From a virus: DNA of 23,033 bases. Where the stretch lies: the IMG/VR virus record IMGVR_UViG_3300049846_000283, positions 1 through 23,033 of that record. One strand, 5' to 3'. Shown piece after piece: positions 2,668-22,922 of this stretch (positions are counted from its first letter, which is position 1; each line of letters starts with the position of its first letter). The notes below the pieces were generated by a model. It searched no databases. It was not told where the DNA came from and was given only the letters and a program-made list of their open reading frames with translations. A program made the translations under genes and the position numbers.

Positions 2668-3142
2668 AAAAGTAATTTTTTCTAATCCATTCGTATAAAT
2701 CTTGTGGCGACATTCTATAGCTTTCTATTACACCATAGCACCATGCCACAAACTCACTACAATACATTTTTTCGTTGTCCTTTGGCTTTCTATAATTCCC
2801 TGTTAATAGTTCCCAAGGTTGGCGTATAATTAAGCCCTCAAAGTCGTATGCCGTATTTCCGCACTTGCTTAACGCTCTTTCTGCAAAGGTCTTTTCGTTT
2901 ACAAGGTTACTACTTCTAAACACTCGGTACTTATAATTGTACATTTTAACCCATTCGTAAAATGGTCGTAAATTAGTGCCGTCTTTTTGCGAATCAATTA
3001 TATAAGGCTTTCCCCAAACCTCGACATATACCCCTGCATGGCTAAACTCCGATTTAGTAAACTTTTTAATTAGCCTAGCTACTAATCTTTGTCCGCTACA
3101 CATGAATATATCGCCTGTTTTATAAACGTCTGTAACTTCCAT
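2633..3142 (-). CDS. Permuted papain-like (YiiX/NlpC-P60-type) amidase, putative endolysin
   Basis: The open frame reaches a GTG at 3151. I chose the ATG at 3142 (MEVTDVYKTGDIFMCSG), giving 169 residues. The fold signature is the circularly permuted NlpC/P60 kind. T-G-D-I-F (9-13) is followed by F-S-H-A-G-V-Y-V with the probable catalytic His35, and by Y-C-S-E-F-V-A-W with the probable nucleophile Cys128 and a following Trp. Known family members cleave amide bonds in peptidoglycan or act on lipids. The gene sits between a holin-like membrane protein and a YkuD-like enzyme, so host-wall lysis is the likely role. It overlaps the upstream gene by 23 bases. Confidence 0.8.
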   Translation of the reverse strand: MEVTDVYKTGDIFMCSGQRLVARLIKKFTKSEFSHAGVYVEVWGKPYIIDSQKDGTNLRPFYEWVKMYNYKYRVFRSSNLVNEKTFAERALSKCGNTAYDFEGLIIRQPWELLTGNYRKPKDNEKMYCSEFVAWCYGVIESYRMSPQDLYEWIRKNYFYEIEIRTNSIA

Positions 3143-3410
3143 ATTTATCACGATTCGTTATGTTTTGCACTAACTCGTTTGTTTTTTCCAATGCTTCGGT
3201 ATTCTTTTCTATTTGGTTAAGTAATACGTTTTGGTAGTTCTTGCTACATTCTTTCGTCTCAAGGCGCAACGCTTTAACCTCTTGTCGTATTTCCTCGTTG
3301 TTTCTAGTGTTTTCTTGCCAAAAATAATAAATGGCAATACCCATAACTACGAATGCTAAACCGCCTTTAATTAACTCTTTTAATACCGTTTCTTTCATTT
3401 CTTTTGTCAT
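3120..3410 (-). CDS. Holin-like single-pass membrane protein
   Basis: The frame extends to an ATG at 3437, but the ATG at 3410 overlaps the previous TGA as ATGA and gives a cleaner N-terminus (MTKEMKETVLKELIKGG). The 96-residue product has one hydrophobic helix (about residues 16-34, GLAFVVMGIAIYYFW). A long charged, probably coiled-coil C-terminal part follows (EEIRQEVKALRLETKE, then NQIEKNTEALEKTNELV). It lies just before two probable wall hydrolases, so a holin or spanin-like role is inferred from topology and position. Single-helix proteins with this shape are common in Bacteroidota phage lysis cassettes. Confidence 0.65.
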   Translation of the reverse strand: MTKEMKETVLKELIKGGLAFVVMGIAIYYFWQENTRNNEEIRQEVKALRLETKECSKNYQNVLLNQIEKNTEALEKTNELVQNITNRDKYGSYRRL

Positions 3411-3610
3411 CGTTCTACGTTTGTATCTCCCCACCATGTACGGTTATACACCTCCGCAAATCCGCTTGAATCTACACCCTCTGTTACACGATTACTACCG
3501 TCCTCCGTAAGTCTTAACTCGTAAGATTCACTATTACGTAAATATTCGTCTCCTTGCTCCCCAAATCCGCTAAGGTTATCAACTGCATTTCCCCAACCTA
3601 TTGTATTCAT
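3407..3610 (-). CDS. 67-residue small structural-type protein with R-x-T-E repeat
   Basis: The ATG at 3610 overlaps the previous TAA, and the TGA at 3409-3407 overlaps the next ATG. The product starts MNTIGWGNAVDNLSGFG, is rich in Gly and Asn, and carries LRLTEDGSNRVTEGVDS. This is a degenerate double copy of R-[LIV]-T-E-x-G that also occurs near the C-terminus of the large tail protein at 14992-17268. The I-G-W-G opening is, from memory, seen in small proteins beside fibre genes of flavobacterial phages. A minor virion or fibre-tip role is plausible but unproven. Confidence 0.7.
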   Translation of the reverse strand: MNTIGWGNAVDNLSGFGEQGDEYLRNSESYELRLTEDGSNRVTEGVDSSGFAEVYNRTWWGDTNVER

Positions 3611-3795
3611 TTTACTATCAATTTTGTAAGGTCTTGACTTAGTTCTACTGTTTCGCCTTTCAATCCGTTCATATCCGCAATAAGGTTTAAATCCTCATTC
3701 ATGCGTTGTTGAATTGCGCTAAGTTGTGCAAGATAAGCCCTAAACCTATCCTGCACTTCCTGCGTTAACTTAATTTCTTGGTGCGCTTGGCTCAT
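3607..3795 (-). CDS. 62-residue helical small protein
   Basis: The product is almost entirely helical with heptad-like hydrophobics (VQDRFRAYLAQLSAIQQRM, then LNLIADMNGLKG), so it is probably a coiled coil. The ATG at 3795 lies inside the end of the previous gene (26-base overlap), and the stop overlaps the next ATG. It resembles small Gln-rich coiled-coil proteins that sit between fibre genes and lysis genes in Bacteroidota phages. The function is not known. Confidence 0.7.
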   Translation of the reverse strand: MSQAHQEIKLTQEVQDRFRAYLAQLSAIQQRMNEDLNLIADMNGLKGETVELSQDLTKLIVK

Positions 3796-5303: not shown

Positions 5304-7033
5304 TATTGAAATCTTTTATTTGTTGGTAAAAAGCCATTATAAGGTAAATTCTTAGGCTGTACGCTCACTTGATACGGGTTTCTAATCTTGTAACCTCTTT
5401 TCTCTGCTGTACTTGTCGCTATTTTACGTGCATCATTGCTTAAAGGGCTTATAGTATCTGTATTTAAAGTAGCGTATACTTCTCTTCTCCAAACATGATG
5501 ACAATTACCACCGCCTTTAAACTTAAATATGTCGTATGTATCCGCTCCCTCTGGTCCCCATTTAGGATTTACCCTAGCGTCTTTTGACATTGCCATAATA
5601 TCCTCTTTTCTGTAAAGTTTATCAGCTTGTAACATTGCTTTACAAAATGGTCTTGTATCATCGCTTAATTTACCTGTATAACGGTAACGTGTAAAGTATT
5701 TTACTCCTTTTACTTCATCGTCTTGTTCACTACGTGCAATTGGTACGGCTTTTCCTGTTGTTACAAAGTTTAATACCTTTTGTGATAACTTAATGTTTTC
5801 AAAATCGAACTCATCACTTCCGTCATCATCAAATGAATCTACTAATATCCAATTTTCGCTAGGTTTTTCGCCATACTCATCAATCCAACTTTGTGAGGAC
5901 ATTTCCACTCCTGTTTCCTCTGCTACTTGTTCTTTTGTTTGTGCGTTTTCTAAGTCTACAAACTCTAAAGGCTGTAACGTTTTAAAGAATAGGTTTAAAT
6001 TGATTTTATTATATGCTAGAATTGAATCTAAAGCGTCTATAATTAAATCTTGTATAGGTTTGATAACCATATTGTCAAATAGTATGCTAGAGTTTTTTAA
6101 TTCATCTGCATTGGAGCTAAAACCATTTGTCGAGGCAATACCAAACAATAAAGGACTTGTTACATTGTGTGCCATCATCAATTTACGCACGCACTCTTCC
6201 GATAAATACGAATAATGTTCTGGAGCATCATTTAAAGGCACATCGTCAATAGTAGTCTTGCTATCCGAATTTCTATTAAAGGCAATTATAATTTTTTCGC
6301 CTTTCGAACCTGCTAACTTAGACATTACCTTATTCTTTATCTCTTCCATTTTCGCAACGTCTGTTTCTCCGTTGTTGAAATTGATAACCTTAGTACCGCT
6401 AAATCCGTTTTTTACCTCGTTAATCAAATAGTCTGCTACTTCTTCTTCCAATAGTGCGTATGGAATACCACCTTGATAGTCTACGTTTGCAAAATACTTT
6501 TTACCTACTGAATAAGGCTTAATACATAATATCTCAAGGCTTTCGTTTGACATTCCAAACGCTGGTATTCTTTGCGGTTGGTATTCTCTTAAGTCTGCCC
6601 AATTGTTAGAGTAGTAATACGCTTCAATTTCGCCTTTTTCGTTGCACTTTTCAGGTCTTACTAATTGCGTTGGTACGTGTTCTACTTTTGCTATTCTTTT
6701 TCTGTCTTTAGAGTAAATTACTTGTAAGTGTCCTTGTCCTAATAACTTTAAATCGTTTACTACTTTACGAATAACGTCTTTAGGAAACAATACAAGCATT
6801 TGTGCGTAGTCATTTGGCTTTTTATTAGCGTCTGTTGCACTCAATCCTTTTCCGTATACTAATCTACAAATATTGTTTATAATAGCGTTATTTGTCGTGC
6901 TATTCGTATATCTGTCTATTAAGTATTGGTAGTAGTCGTTATTTTCTCCATACTCTACCCAATCATTTCTTGAATCTTCCTTTATTACTGGTGTAGTGTA
7001 CTGACTAAATTCTATAATATTTATATTACTCAT
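5303..7033 (-). CDS. Portal protein with fused MuF-like C-terminal region
   Basis: This 576-residue protein forms the ring through which DNA enters the head. The N-terminal two thirds follow the HK97/SPP1-type portal pattern. There is an opening N-D-W-V-E-Y-G and N-N-D-Y-Y-Q-Y-L (23-39), a stem/wing region with L-G-Q-G-H-L-Q-V-I-Y (98-107), and the H-N-V-T-S-P-L-L-F-G-I segment (289-299) typical of these portals. Residues about 445-545 add a second module with D-T-R-P-F-C (459-464), N-P-K-W-G-P-E-G-A-D-T-Y-D (489-501) and G-G-G-N-C-H-H (507-513). This resembles the Cys/His end of MuF-type head morphogenesis proteins. It lies after the capsid and tail-tube genes, which is unusual. Confidence 0.85.
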   Translation of the reverse strand: MSNINIIEFSQYTTPVIKEDSRNDWVEYGENNDYYQYLIDRYTNSTTNNAIINNICRLVYGKGLSATDANKKPNDYAQMLVLFPKDVIRKVVNDLKLLGQGHLQVIYSKDRKRIAKVEHVPTQLVRPEKCNEKGEIEAYYYSNNWADLREYQPQRIPAFGMSNESLEILCIKPYSVGKKYFANVDYQGGIPYALLEEEVADYLINEVKNGFSGTKVINFNNGETDVAKMEEIKNKVMSKLAGSKGEKIIIAFNRNSDSKTTIDDVPLNDAPEHYSYLSEECVRKLMMAHNVTSPLLFGIASTNGFSSNADELKNSSILFDNMVIKPIQDLIIDALDSILAYNKINLNLFFKTLQPLEFVDLENAQTKEQVAEETGVEMSSQSWIDEYGEKPSENWILVDSFDDDGSDEFDFENIKLSQKVLNFVTTGKAVPIARSEQDDEVKGVKYFTRYRYTGKLSDDTRPFCKAMLQADKLYRKEDIMAMSKDARVNPKWGPEGADTYDIFKFKGGGNCHHVWRREVYATLNTDTISPLSNDARKIATSTAEKRGYKIRNPYQVSVQPKNLPYNGFLPTNKRFQ

Positions 7034-12846: not shown

Positions 12847-12858
12847 ATCTAATAAACT
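12847..12858 (-). repeat. Repeated translation leader, copy 2
   Basis: AGTTTATTAGAT abuts the ATG at 12846, identical to the copy at 7392-7403. The TAA stop of the tape measure gene reads into it, so the signal lies wholly in the 11-base gap plus one base of the stop codon. Confidence 0.6.
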
Positions 12859-14861
12859 TAAAGTGTTGCGTTTTGTATTCTATTTCTGTCTAGGGCTTGC
12901 GCTGTTGTTACTTGACCACTCACTACGTAGGCTTGTACTGGCTGTTGTTGAAGTGTTGCTAATTGGTTTACTCCACTATTTCCAACTACGTTAAAATTAG
13001 GTGTTGTGGTAGTTTGTGTTGCGCCTTGTGGTATTGATACTCCACCAGTTCCACCTTGTGCGCTTGTGTCCTCAATTTTAGTTTTAGCAATCTTCGCCAC
13101 GTTTGCTAGTCCTGCTGTTACCGCTACACCTGCTGCGATTGTTTTTATTACAATACCTCCAGGAGTTGATGCAAAAGCACTTTGCGCACCTTTATATGTG
13201 TCTACTATTGCGGACGCTATACCTAGTGCCTTTTGTGCGTTAAATTGTGCCTTTGCTTGTTTTTTGTTTCGTGCCGTAAATGCTCCGATAAGGTCGCTAA
13301 CTGCACTCAGTCCGCTTGCTACTAAATCTATCTTAACTTGGTTTAACCTTTTATCGTCTTCGATTTGTTTGTCTACTGATTCTTTGTTAATACGCTCTAT
13401 TTCTTCTTGCTTTGCTTTTTCTGCGTCTATTTCCTCTTGTGCGTATTTTACGTTAATGTCATTTACTAAGTTTAAACGTTGCTCCTCTAAATATGCTGTT
13501 TCAATACCGTATTGTTTTGCTTGTTCGATTAAGTAAAAATACTTATCGTTGACCGCTTGTACTTCTCTATCTTGTGCGCTCAAATATTGGTTTGTGTATT
13601 CCTCTTGTGCTTGTTCTAATTCGTTTAAAAAGTCGTTTTCTAATTCTTTTATGTTGCGTATTCTTTCTCGTTCTATTTCCTCTGCTTTTAAACGGGCTTC
13701 CTCTAGTTGTTTAAGTTTTTCTTCGTGTCTTTTCTTTTCCTCTTCTGCTCTTTGTCTGCGTTGCTCGTTTAGTTTGTTTTCGCTTTCGCTAGTTATACCA
13801 TTTGCCTTTTCTAACTGCTCTGCTTGCATCAAAACGCTTTGCGCTATGTCTGTTATACTCTTTGCCCTTTGGTTTGCTTCTGCTTGTTCCTCTTTCGCTC
13901 TTTTCGCTTGTCGCTTACGTGTCTCTGCTAGTAATTCGTCTGTGCTACCTGTTACCGTTTTTAAACCAATAGCCCATTTGTCCGCTATCGTTGTTTGGTC
14001 TTCAAATTGTGATGTTATTCCTTTTACTTGTTCTTCCGCTGCTTTGGCAAATAATGCGTTTGCTTGCGCTCTTAAAGCTGTAGCCTTAACATATGCTTCC
14101 GTCTTCTTGTAATATAGTTCCTCTGCTTCGTTTAGACTTGTTGCCTTTCCGAATGAATCGCCTAAAGTATCGTTATACGTCTGTAGTGCTTCCTCTTTAC
14201 TTATTACACCTTGTTTTGCTAACTTAAATGCACTTTCAACTTTTTGCGTAGACTGTATAGCATCTTGCGCACCTTTTCGGTAGTCTTCCATTGTTGCGTT
14301 CAATGCGTCTTGTGCTTCGTTTGTTTCTCCTAAAGCGTCTTGTAAGTCATCCCAATAAGCAATAGCCGTACCAATAGCCGTCAATAGTAAACCAATACCC
14401 GTTACCATGAAAACTTTTGAGGCTTTCGTCATTCCGTTAAAAGCATTTACCGCAACTGCCCCTAACTGTTTAAAACTTCTACCTGCGTCTTCTAAACCCT
14501 CTAAACCTTGCGCCAAAGCCATAGCACTCTGAACACGTAGCAACGTTTCTTGTAACTTGGACGATTCTACACCAAGTAAGCCCATAGCACCCTCCACGGC
14601 ACTAAATCCACTAGCAACCGATTGAATAGCTTTACCAGTAGCATTAAATACACCCTCGCCTTTAAACGCTTGGATAGCATCGTTTGTGTCTTCTATTTGG
14701 TCTTTTAGTTCCGCTGCTCTTTTTGCTGCGTTGGCTACTTCTTGACTTGTTTCTCCGTATGTCTGTACTAACTTCTGTACTTCTAAAACCGCCTCTTTAT
14801 ATTGAGACTTTAAAGATTGTACGTTGTCCTTTATTTCTACTTCAATTACTTTCTTTTCCAT
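12858..14861 (-). CDS. Tail tape measure protein
   Basis: This 667-residue protein sets tail length. It has a coiled-coil start (SLKSQYKEAVLEVQKLVQ) and Ala/Gly-rich amphipathic helices. A hydrophobic segment lies near 147-168 (VFMVTGIGLLLTAIGTAIAY). A long Lys/Glu coiled coil follows about 360-500 (EEEKKRHEEKLKQLEEARLK). The C-terminal helical region has A-L-G-I-A-S-A-I-V-D-T-Y-K-G-A-Q-S-A and A-A-G-V-A-V-T-A-G-L-A-N-V, both typical of tape measures. At about 0.15 nm per residue it implies a tail near 100 nm. No muralytic domain is visible. Confidence 0.88.
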   Translation of the reverse strand: MEKKVIEVEIKDNVQSLKSQYKEAVLEVQKLVQTYGETSQEVANAAKRAAELKDQIEDTNDAIQAFKGEGVFNATGKAIQSVASGFSAVEGAMGLLGVESSKLQETLLRVQSAMALAQGLEGLEDAGRSFKQLGAVAVNAFNGMTKASKVFMVTGIGLLLTAIGTAIAYWDDLQDALGETNEAQDALNATMEDYRKGAQDAIQSTQKVESAFKLAKQGVISKEEALQTYNDTLGDSFGKATSLNEAEELYYKKTEAYVKATALRAQANALFAKAAEEQVKGITSQFEDQTTIADKWAIGLKTVTGSTDELLAETRKRQAKRAKEEQAEANQRAKSITDIAQSVLMQAEQLEKANGITSESENKLNEQRRQRAEEEKKRHEEKLKQLEEARLKAEEIERERIRNIKELENDFLNELEQAQEEYTNQYLSAQDREVQAVNDKYFYLIEQAKQYGIETAYLEEQRLNLVNDINVKYAQEEIDAEKAKQEEIERINKESVDKQIEDDKRLNQVKIDLVASGLSAVSDLIGAFTARNKKQAKAQFNAQKALGIASAIVDTYKGAQSAFASTPGGIVIKTIAAGVAVTAGLANVAKIAKTKIEDTSAQGGTGGVSIPQGATQTTTTPNFNVVGNSGVNQLATLQQQPVQAYVVSGQVTTAQALDRNRIQNATL

Positions 14862-18847: not shown

Positions 18848-19299
18848 TAACAAACAGTTGTTGTATTTGGTAAATCAATATCGAACGTCATAGTCCAACC
18901 TGCTTGGTTATTTTCGAAACGCTCAACAAACGGCTCTAATTCGGACGTGCCAACTAACTCGTATCTGTCGTCTAATAATTCGCCTCGTTTCATCATTCCG
19001 TCAAATCGTAACAATACTTCTAACATAGAATTTAATACGTCTATTTCATTGTCGTTGCCTCTAAAACTATCTGTTGCCTCTTCTTTGCTTATATCCACTA
19101 CATCCATGGCAATTAACGAAACATTAAAACGTACTGTTGTGTTTAAGGGTGTAGCAGTATTCACCATTATGTGTACCATTGGAAATATACTTTCTCTGCT
19201 TAAATCAACGTCATCTAAAAAGCCTCGTGTTACTTGGTTTATTATTACATCGCTAATAAAGTAGTCTTTTATCTTTGTTAGTAGCTTATTGTACGTCAT
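18847..19299 (-). CDS. Tail-terminator-like minor structural protein
   Basis: This 150-residue alpha/beta protein begins MTYNKLLTKIKDYFISDVII. The middle shows F-P-M-V-H-I-M-V-N-T-A-T-P, and the end has F-E-N-N-Q-A-G-W-T-M-T-F-D-I-D-L-P-N. The layout of N-terminal helix, strand, and Trp plus strand end suits the tail terminator fold. Its ATG overlaps the TGA of the -1 frame of the preceding chaperone-like gene, a useful clue that the -1 frame is the true reading there. The function is inferred from fold pattern and neighbours. Confidence 0.6.
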   Translation of the reverse strand: MTYNKLLTKIKDYFISDVIINQVTRGFLDDVDLSRESIFPMVHIMVNTATPLNTTVRFNVSLIAMDVVDISKEEATDSFRGNDNEIDVLNSMLEVLLRFDGMMKRGELLDDRYELVGTSELEPFVERFENNQAGWTMTFDIDLPNTTTVC

Positions 19300-19550
19300 T
19301 TCTTTTTCAATTTTCTAAGTTCAATTTCTGTTTTTTGTTTTTCAAAAGCAAGGTATGTAAGACACTTTCTAAGTGGTTCTCTTGTAATGGTGTCAAACTT
19401 TGTAATGTCGCCTTGAGCCAACGCATATATGCTCGGATACCATCCCCATTGTTTTGCAAATTGGTACTCTTCGCTGAACTCGTTAACACTTTCAGTTGAT
19501 TCTCCGAATATAGTAGGGAAGCTTTCAATAATTCTCTTTTTAAATTGTAA
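19296..19550 (-). CDS. -1 frameshift extension of the chaperone-like gene
   Basis: This frame is entered only at the run of nine T. It is closed by a TAA at 19562-19560 immediately upstream and has no ATG or GTG of its own. From 19550 it reads 84 codons with convincing protein content (FGESTESVNEFSEEYQFA, then W-G-W-Y-P-S-I-Y-A-L-A-Q-G-D-I, then L-T-Y-L-A-F-E-K-Q-K). It ends TGA at 19298-19296, overlapping the next ATG as ATGA. The predicted fusion is about 247 residues, close to the 243 of the unshifted product. The expected biology is a long, shifted tail assembly chaperone product. A one-base sequencing error in the T run is the alternative. Confidence 0.75.
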   Translation of the reverse strand, partial: LQFKKRIIESFPTIFGESTESVNEFSEEYQFAKQWGWYPSIYALAQGDITKFDTITREPLRKCLTYLAFEKQKTEIELRKLKKK

Positions 19551-20038
19551 AAAAAAACCTTACAACCCAATGCTATATTTACAGGTGCTAACTTCATCAA
19601 CTCGCTGTAAACGTGTGAACCTTGATATGCTTCTATTTCGTATTTGTTGCCTAGCTTCTTTACTATTGGTCTGTATAGTACAGCCATTGCTTTGTGGTAC
19701 GTTTCTAAGTCGTGTATGTACTTATCTATGTCTATGTACTCGCCATAACTTATATTCTCTAAGTCAGGTATAAATCCAAACTCTATATCATTTACTTTAA
19801 ACCTTTCCACAAATGGAGTTTTTTGTTTGAACAACTTGTCAAATGATTCTACTAACTCTATTACGTCTGCATAGTTTATTTTAAGTACGTCTTTCAGTTG
19901 AAGCCCGCAAAATATTTCTACCATTTTTTGACTTACAAATTCCTCATCGTTTGAATCTGTCGCCAACTTGACAAACTTTTGATATGATTGTAATGGGATT
20001 TCTTGTAGTGATGTTGGTATATTTATCTCTAACTTCAT
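19307..20038 (-). CDS. Tail assembly chaperone-like protein, unshifted frame
   Basis: The zero-frame product is 243 residues, starting MKLEINIPTSLQEIPLQSYQ. The shared N-terminal 163 residues are helical, with F-G-F-I-P-D-L-E-N-I-S-Y-G-E-Y-I-D-I-D-K (about 87-106), M-A-V-L-Y-R-P-I, and end at K-V-F-F. After that point this frame continues as R-E-L-L-K-A-S-L-L-Y with N-G-D-G-I and a Leu-rich tail, while a -1 frame looks at least as protein-like. The gene follows the large terminase gene and uses the repeated AU-rich leader. A chaperone role is inferred from the frameshift and the tail-module position, not from a recognised domain. Confidence 0.7.
   Translation of the reverse strand: MKLEINIPTSLQEIPLQSYQKFVKLATDSNDEEFVSQKMVEIFCGLQLKDVLKINYADVIELVESFDKLFKQKTPFVERFKVNDIEFGFIPDLENISYGEYIDIDKYIHDLETYHKAMAVLYRPIVKKLGNKYEIEAYQGSHVYSELMKLAPVNIALGCKVFFYNLKRELLKASLLYSENQLKVLTSSAKSTNLQNNGDGIRAYMRWLKATLQSLTPLQENHLESVLHTLLLKNKKQKLNLEN
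19549..19557 (-). promoter_or_regulatory. Slippery run of nine T for -1 frameshifting
   Basis: The minus strand reads GG, nine T, ACAA. It contains U-UUU-UUU heptamers, allowing tandem -1 slippage of Phe codons. I see no strong stem or pseudoknot within the next 30 bases, although an AAAAAG follows ten bases on. A homopolymer error in the sequence is the competing explanation. Confidence 0.7.
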
Positions 20039-20071: not shown

Positions 20072-21229
20072 TTAGAACACGTGATATGTTCCTTTTGCAT
20101 TTTTACCTAGCGTTTCCATTTCGTGATAACGCACCGCATCTATAATATGGTTGTAAAAGTCAATAGGTTTATTTAGCGTTTTACCTGCTTTATCTTTGTC
20201 CCAAGTGTACGCTCGTAGTTCTTTGATTAAATTAATGCTTTGCTTCGTAACTAAATAGTCTTGTTGTTGCATTAAGTCAATACCGTAGTTTATAGAATCC
20301 CTACCTTTTACTGTTGGGTGTATGTTTATTCCGTATCTGTATATTTCCTCAATGGATTTTGGTTCGGCACTATCCGCATATATTACCACGTTTCTAGGTA
20401 GTATCTTGGCAATATCAGAGTTTAACATACCTGTACGGTAACACAATTCATTTAGTATTCGTTTTCCATTCCATTCGTACACTTCTACTACTGCTGTAGG
20501 GTCTGCACTATATCCAAAGTCTAATCCTAAACCAATTAAACGGGCTTCATCTGGCACTTTGTCAATCGTTGACCAATTACTAAATACTACACCCTCTAAA
20601 CTTCCTATTTGCCCTAGTCCATACACTTTCCACCAGTTGTCCCAATAAGATGAGGTCTTTGCTTTTTCTTTTGCGCTTTCAATCTCTTTTATAATCGTTT
20701 CGTCTAGTGCTTCGTTATCTTTGTAGTTGAGTATTATAAAGTCTGCGTCCTCGTCTTTTAATACTTCGGTATGCGCCCAAAATTCATTTGTAGGGTTAAA
20801 GTCTAAATAAATATCTTGGTTTGTACGTATACTCAATTGGTGGTATGCGTCAAATGGAATATTGTTTGCCTCATTAACGTATAATATGTTTCTTCTCGCT
20901 CCCCTCACTTTACTTTCGTCCTCTACACTAAAAAATTCTATATAGCTACCATTCGCAAAAGTATATGTAAGTAGTGAACGATTCCAATGGTCGTCAACGT
21001 ATCTATTCGTCAACTTCATAATCTTTAAGAAATCTTTCATTGCACCACGTCTTAAATGTGGTATAGATTCAGAAACTACGCTAATCTCTAAAAATGGTTT
21101 AGCAGCTGCTTTAGATATTAGTACAGGCAATATCCCAAACGTTTTCCCTGCTGACGTACCACCTTGTATTACTTTTTTACGCTTTTTTAAGGCTCTTATC
21201 TTCTTTATTGCTGTCGTATAAACAAACAT
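20072..21229 (-). CDS. terL: Terminase large subunit
   Basis: This 385-residue packaging motor cuts and drives DNA into the head. The ATPase part has Walker A G-G-T-S-A-G-K-T (23-30), a Walker B-like I-L-Y-V-N-E-A (115-121, catalytic Glu120), and D-F-N-P-T-N-E-F-W (143-151), the usual site of the coupling motif. The nuclease part has L-G-L-D-F-G-Y-S-A-D-P (234-244, Asp237), Y-A-D-S-A-E-P (284-290, Asp286) and H-I-I-D-A-V-R-Y (361-368, Asp364), the three acidic residues of RNase H-fold terminases. All key residues are present and the length is normal for the short Bacteroidota phage form. It is separated by 65 bases from the small subunit. Confidence 0.95.
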   Translation of the reverse strand: MFVYTTAIKKIRALKKRKKVIQGGTSAGKTFGILPVLISKAAAKPFLEISVVSESIPHLRRGAMKDFLKIMKLTNRYVDDHWNRSLLTYTFANGSYIEFFSVEDESKVRGARRNILYVNEANNIPFDAYHQLSIRTNQDIYLDFNPTNEFWAHTEVLKDEDADFIILNYKDNEALDETIIKEIESAKEKAKTSSYWDNWWKVYGLGQIGSLEGVVFSNWSTIDKVPDEARLIGLGLDFGYSADPTAVVEVYEWNGKRILNELCYRTGMLNSDIAKILPRNVVIYADSAEPKSIEEIYRYGINIHPTVKGRDSINYGIDLMQQQDYLVTKQSINLIKELRAYTWDKDKAGKTLNKPIDFYNHIIDAVRYHEMETLGKNAKGTYHVF

Positions 21230-22406: not shown

Positions 22407-22922
22407 TTATATTAGTTCATAATCTTTATTTATATAGTCTTGGTAGCTTTCGCCTACGTTTTCAATCAATCTCTTTTTACAGTTCCTTAGCGTGTTGTTT
22501 ATGCTTGAGAATGTTAGTCCCGTTTCTGTTTCTAGTGTTCGTAAACTTTTACCTGACTTTCTGTATAAGTCGAAAAGCATCTTATCGTACCAATGCCAGT
22601 TATTTATCTCTTCTTCTATTCTTTCGTGTATTCGTGATTCCCCTAAATGCTCTATTACTTCGTCAGGTATTTTGTGTAGTGTTTTGTCTAGTTGTTCTGG
22701 TTGGTATTTCTTTACTTCTGTGTAGTGCATATTTCGTAACGTTACCCATACATATAAAGTGTTTGGTTTTCCGTTCTTCATTATCTTCTCATTTGTGTAC
22801 TCATTTAGTCTTATATACATATCTTGCACTAAGTCTTCAGGGTTTGCGCTACCTATTGATTTAGCCATTTTCAGCCAATCAATATGATACTTCGATAACT
22901 CTTTTAATATACTCACGTTCAC
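22407..22922 (-). CDS. Sigma-70-like transcription factor
   Basis: This 171-residue protein starts at GTG 22922, or GTG 22916. Both lie upstream of the conserved part, and an internal ATG at 22868 would cut into region 2. It has a short region-2-like segment, A-N-P-E-D-L-V-Q-D-M-Y-I-R-L (26-39), and Y-V-W-V-T-L-R-N-M-H-Y (57-67). A C-terminal helix-turn-helix of region-4 type follows, with K-S-L-R-T-L-E-T-E-T-G-L-T-F-S-S-I-N-N-T-L (125-145). This resembles small phage sigma-like regulators of flavobacterial phages, which probably switch on late genes. It is the first gene of the late unit, so it may control its own operon. Region 3 is missing. Confidence 0.8.
   Translation of the reverse strand: MNVSILKELSKYHIDWLKMAKSIGSANPEDLVQDMYIRLNEYTNEKIMKNGKPNTLYVWVTLRNMHYTEVKKYQPEQLDKTLHKIPDEVIEHLGESRIHERIEEEINNWHWYDKMLFDLYRKSGKSLRTLETETGLTFSSINNTLRNCKKRLIENVGESYQDYINKDYELI

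Follow-up and report, generated by a model that had tools for sequence, protein, structure and literature searches.

Frameshifted tail assembly chaperones are already known. In the lambda G/GT pair (PMC5009743), a single gene of the tail module, flanked by those for the major tail protein and tape measure, yields two products with a common N-terminal part; slippage toward the 3' part of the gene gives access to a C-terminal domain in the -1 frame, and the zero frame stops shortly past the slip, which leaves G far shorter than GT. Chaperones of this type bind the tape measure and tail tube proteins and do not occur in virions. The lambda slippery site is GGGAAAG. In dnaX of Thermus thermophilus, a cellular gene, slippage is transcriptional: the mRNAs transcribed from its nine T vary in length and yield two products (PMC5009743). 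Bacterial RNA polymerase slips efficiently at T runs of nine or more (PMC5009743). Here we analysed a window of 23,033 nucleotides (the whole stretch of DNA under study, positions 1 to 23,033 of IMG/VR virus record IMGVR_UViG_3300049846_000283) from a Bacteroidota-type phage, in which one gene of the tail module resembles lambda G/GT in being a single gene with a common N-terminal part and a -1 C-terminal domain that would be reached by slippage toward its 3' part. It differs from lambda in that its two products are nearly equal in length, that its zero-frame end is itself selected over at least about 65 codons and overlaps the -1 end (dual coding), that it follows the gene for the terminase large subunit (TerL), and that a T9 or T10 run takes the place of the lambda site. 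With dnaX it shares the run of nine T and the prospect of two products, whereas dnaX has nearby stops in both other frames and no second selected domain, and slippage at the run in the window has not been demonstrated.

The gene lies on the minus strand, as do all features given below, with its ATG at 20038 and its zero-frame stop at 19309-19307, which gives a product of 243 aa; the slipped, trans-frame product has 247 aa. Both would share an N-terminal domain of 160 codons (19559-20038), an open zero frame that leads into a run of nine T (19549-19557) flanked by GG and AC and containing the in-phase heptamer T TTT TTT. Past the run, the zero frame continues for 80 codons (19310-19549) as the C-terminal tail of the G-like product, presumed to be the more abundant one, and the -1 frame stays open for 84 codons (19299-19550) as the putative T-like C-terminal domain, which includes WGWYPSIYALA and LTYLAFEKQK. 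The TGA of the -1 frame (19298-19296) overlaps the ATG of the next gene (19299) in the form ATGA (19296-19299). Upstream, the -1 frame is closed by a TAA at 19562-19560, and after this TAA it contains neither ATG nor GTG in the window, with a single TTG far inside; the third (+1) frame is closed by a TAA (19540-19542) three codons past the run. TerL (20072-21229; Pfam Terminase_3C and Terminase_3) is located immediately upstream of the gene, and the tape measure protein (12858-14861; PHROGs tape measure matches, best E 9e-13) is encoded five genes downstream. The match to PHROG 32199, a family of unknown function, covers the N domain and reaches just past the run (E 5e-13); the family profile comprises 175 positions and lacks the -1 end. 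The initial annotation, made from sequence alone, had proposed a programmed -1 frameshift at this site, and its T9 run, two open frames, ATGA overlap, 84-codon -1 frame without ATG or GTG, near-equal products (243 and about 247) and position after the terminase all held, the one failure being the distance of the upstream TAA from the run, given as three bases and in fact two (GG).

The nearest described relatives are the Nonlabens phages P12024L and P12024S (Inhavirus), in which genes 40/41 and 38/39 encode a homologous N domain (hhalign prob 99.5) together with a T9 run in the same phase, a -1 domain with WGWY (or WSWY) and the same gene order. They differ in their zero-frame end, which extends only 28 codons from the first codon of the run and represents the classical short-G form; such a short end, with G much shorter than GT, was found only in the Nonlabens phages and a few others. 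The long zero-frame end may derive from a short Nonlabens-like end through stop loss, an order of events that is inferred and no more than possible. In each phage the gene pair, annotated as two hypothetical proteins, looks like one slippage gene; the two loci, both with T9, lie at 6001-6695 of JQ823123.1 and 3001-3695 of JQ823122.1. As a separate observation, an ORF at 22407-22922 of the window, upstream of the terminase genes, resembles a small sigma-70-type factor, judged from its translation only, and a phage sigma-70-like protein is annotated at a similar place in P12024L.

Relatives numbered 122 in a protein search of viral contigs and more than 590 in an alignment search; three of them lie in contigs of Bacteroidota metagenome-assembled genomes (MAGs) and two in isolated phages, the Nonlabens phages P12024L and P12024S. 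Protein similarity brought up 121 distinct relatives, and 121 of 121 had exactly nine T in the same phase, with differing codons around the run (GTT or CTT before it; TGG, TAC, TAT or TCG after it). Translated across the run, the family shows the patterns VFFY/W and VFFLxF in the two frames. When the loci from protein searches and from pattern scans for T8, T9 and T10 were classified jointly, 278 of 285 had the -1 arrangement in the same phase, with T9 in 235 and T10 in 43; because the pattern scans select for the run and its context, 121 of 121 is the unbiased figure. Of the remaining rows, one kept the phase with T8 and three joined the two parts in frame through T10; T8 gave a +1 arrangement in two more, and the last, with T6, was a spurious internal run. 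In the 43 T10 forms, a GTT or CTT codon at the 5' edge of the run has become TTT by substitution, which preserves the phase; a requirement for exactly nine T was considered and dropped, as many loci have T10 of this kind. No relative without a slippery run was found, although only the protein searches, and not the pattern scans, could have detected one. A stop in the +1 frame at the third codon after the run was present in 120 of 121 relatives, which could be a mere consequence of the two coding frames. The gene order TerL - slippage gene - g150 - g174 - g354 - g758 - tape measure was conserved, with TerL, the gene and g150 kept together in all large loci except one, where no TerL match was obtained.

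Several individual loci departed from this picture. The T10 loci with the T-like end in frame (L174:958, L184:3029 and L215:2226) and the T8 loci in the +1 arrangement (L220 and L222), in which the T-like end would need another shift, may be due to homopolymer errors, to natural variation or to contigs derived from RNA. In L034 the T9 run is intact, but codon 143, within the N domain, is a stop, which probably reflects a sequencing error or a dead gene.

Both frames past the run are under selection. In the window itself, the zero frame stayed as open as observed in 0 of 1000 draws in which the synonymous codons of the -1 frame were redrawn, and in 1 of 1000 permutations of the gene's own codons. 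With synonymous codons redrawn, a zero-frame stop is expected after a median of 6 codons, against an observed zero frame open for 62-88 codons, with p below 0.01 for most relatives. Stops and conservation were evaluated in 50 diverged relatives, with identities below 90%. Across overlap columns 3-69 (about 67 codons), 0 zero-frame stops were observed against 168 (sd 8) expected, and the null was taken as calibrated because the same statistic in the N-domain control gave 972 observed against 949 expected. Four-fold synonymous sites of the -1 frame were 0.95-0.99 identical over overlap codons 3-26, mostly 0.65-0.84 up to about codon 74 and about 0.5 beyond, with a pairwise identity of 0.447 as the N-domain baseline. 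Zero-frame residue conservation exceeded the null by 0.27 in segment I (19484-19549; YNLKRELLKASLLYSENQLKVL in the window, family consensus WTLGNELLxATLNYLExE) and by 0.18 in segment II (19382-19438, around IRAYMRWLKATLQSLTPLQ; mean excess 0.184), compared to 0.03 (0.026) in the control. Leucine occupied zero-frame columns 5 and 9 in 50 of 50 sequences, and column 54, in segment II, in 98% against 37% under the null. In columns 74-96 the zero-frame conservation signal was gone and stops were present (130 against 164 expected); many relatives end the zero frame at 57-68 codons, short of the -1 frame end, and in some groups it stays open to about 90 codons. With conservation fading and stops appearing in columns 74-96, selection is taken to maintain the zero-frame tail as a protein end over about 65-70 residues in these 50 relatives. 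The -1 end is conserved in all relatives.

Comparison thus establishes the run, both frames and the selection on them. Programmed slippage with two selected ends is very likely, with the expression of both products remaining an inference in the absence of protein or RNA data. The corresponding claims of the initial annotation fared well: the improbability of the open zero frame by chance held, programmed access to the -1 frame with two real ends is strongly supported by comparison, and the codon-level selection and family-wide conservation that it had proposed to look for were found in both frames and in 278 of 285 loci, respectively. It had also stated that reads with eight or ten T, or relatives with the W-G-W-Y end in frame and no slippery run, would point to an indel instead; indel variants proved rare (3 in-frame T10 and 2 T8 of 285), and no relative of the latter kind was found in the protein searches.

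The AlphaFold model of the N domain had a pLDDT of about 85-92 over most of its length, and the last N-domain helix (153-191 in the model) extends into segment I of the zero-frame tail. Segment II was modelled as a low-confidence helix (198-215), the remainder of the tail being of low confidence, and the -1 end is predicted to form a folded, all-helical domain (pLDDT 87.5). The function of the gene is less directly supported. A fold search returned a family of uncharacterised phage proteins, the Nonlabens one among them, and the sole match named tail assembly chaperone was a weak one in BFVD (E 0.15). Pfam and solved-structure sequence searches revealed no relative, a PDB sequence search with a profile of the -1 end gave no relative, and PDB fold comparison gave generic helices only, mainly over residues 157-223, with no match for the -1 domain. 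Chitinase matches to the zero-frame profile in the PDB sequence search were at chance level only and were discarded, and the annotated chaperone of Flavobacterium phage FPSV-S2, which adjoins the tape measure, showed no recognisable relationship (hhalign prob 6). Gp10 of Flavobacterium phage 6H is a weak, remote relative of the N domain (hhalign prob 64). Past 6H gp10, an unannotated stretch with a T-like domain in another frame is present (L160; NC_021867.1, 10047-10927, minus strand), and this region probably contains an unannotated frameshift whose exact site is unresolved. A lambda G/GT-like tail assembly chaperone pair is the best reading because of the slippage architecture and the conserved tail-gene order; we regard it as likely, inferred from architecture and weak fold evidence, and as part of it the usually short G end has likely been turned into a second, dual-coded C-terminus. 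Against it, the gene does not adjoin the tape measure as in lambda, and no homology to known chaperones has been demonstrated. The tail-chaperone reading of the initial annotation is in this sense plausible and remains inferred.

We propose that one gene gives rise to two selected proteins with a common 160-residue N domain and different C-terminal 80-90 residues. Without a slip, the G-like form carrying the zero-frame tail would be made; a slip at the T run to the -1 frame would produce the GT-like form carrying the folded helical domain, through one extra U if the polymerase slips or through a -1 step on T TTT TTT if the ribosome does; and a slip to the third frame would be stopped within three codons, leaving the N domain alone. 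By analogy with lambda G/GT, the ratio of the chaperones would be fixed by the slippage rate, and the T-like domain would recruit the tail tube protein. Two-product slippage yielding a chaperone set is likely the best overall explanation; that both products are expressed, that they act as chaperones and that the polymerase is what slips are inferences.

As for which machinery slips, we lean slightly towards RNA polymerase as the main cause, an inference drawn from the T9/T10 length of the run (278 of 285 loci, with one in-phase T8), the lack of downstream structure and the length-dependent avoidance of such runs elsewhere. Folding z-scores in four windows downstream of the run averaged about 0 in 52 relatives, and RNAalifold detected no covarying pairs there. 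Among 2011 other genes in the fetched loci (the chaperone gene having been removed by HMM), T6, T7, T8 and T9 occurred at 0.85, 0.59, 0.30 and 0.08 of the synonymous-shuffle expectation, a 12-fold avoidance of T9, and the in-phase T TTT TTT occurred at 0.54 of expectation against 0.26 and 0.34 in the other phases. The avoidance of T runs thus depends on length, not on codon phase, and the conserved T9 thereby stands out. Long A runs were also strongly avoided in these genes (A9 at 0.38 and A10 at 0.26 of expectation). Replication errors could contribute to run avoidance, and the pattern may still accommodate ribosomal slippage. The word frameshift in the initial annotation need not mean a ribosomal event, as polymerase slippage fits at least as well.

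In the strongest rival, polymerase slippage plays no part, and tandem slippage of Phe-tRNA on T TTT TTT moves the ribosome to the -1 frame, as in the classical chaperone genes of lambda type; we consider this a serious alternative, if a slightly weaker one. In its favour, every -1-arrangement locus with T8-T10 contains T TTT TTT in phase, L218 retains the -1 arrangement with only T8, and the frameshifts known from tail chaperones have been ascribed to the ribosome (PMC5009743). Against it, nine or more T are kept though seven would suffice, with the caveat that the flanking T may be held by the amino acids of both frames; no stimulatory structure was detected downstream, which does not exclude it since some bacterial sites lack one; and elsewhere in-phase heptamers are tolerated better than those in other phases. 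It is unlikely that the zero-frame tail is functionless as a protein and open only for ribosome cover, avoidance of polarity or reaching the next start: the zero frame does stop near the next start in the window and in many relatives, but its residues exceed the calibrated null in two segments, and many relatives stop at 57-68 codons, before the -1 frame end. It is very unlikely that synonymous conservation here reflects an element acting as RNA or DNA instead of a second protein end; it is very high right after the run, but there is no structure signal, and the excess follows zero-frame codons, excludes stops and ends approximately where the shorter zero frames end. A sequencing error or recent indel is all but excluded, and refuted for the family, as only 5 of 285 loci have other counts that break the arrangement and the remaining loci come from many independent metagenomes and isolated phages.

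Collectively, a slippage gene with two selected overlapping ends is very likely real, widespread and apparently unannotated in this group, and gene-calling programs probably overlook it or break it in two in hundreds of phage contigs. In the literature searched, which was covered only in part, we found no frameshifted tail chaperone reported to have two ends that overlap and are each conserved, and none reported to depend on a T9/T10 run. A bolder reading, which on present evidence could as well fail as hold, is that programmed polymerase slippage on T9/T10 supplies the tail assembly chaperones of a large and mostly uncultured group of phages. Two selected, alternative C-terminal ends would lie in overlapping frames of one stretch of DNA, with the third frame closed at once, and G-like, GT-like and N-only forms would arise from one gene in a ratio set by the polymerase. 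If the polymerase does slip, it would be transcription, not translation, that sets the tail-assembly ratio in these phages.
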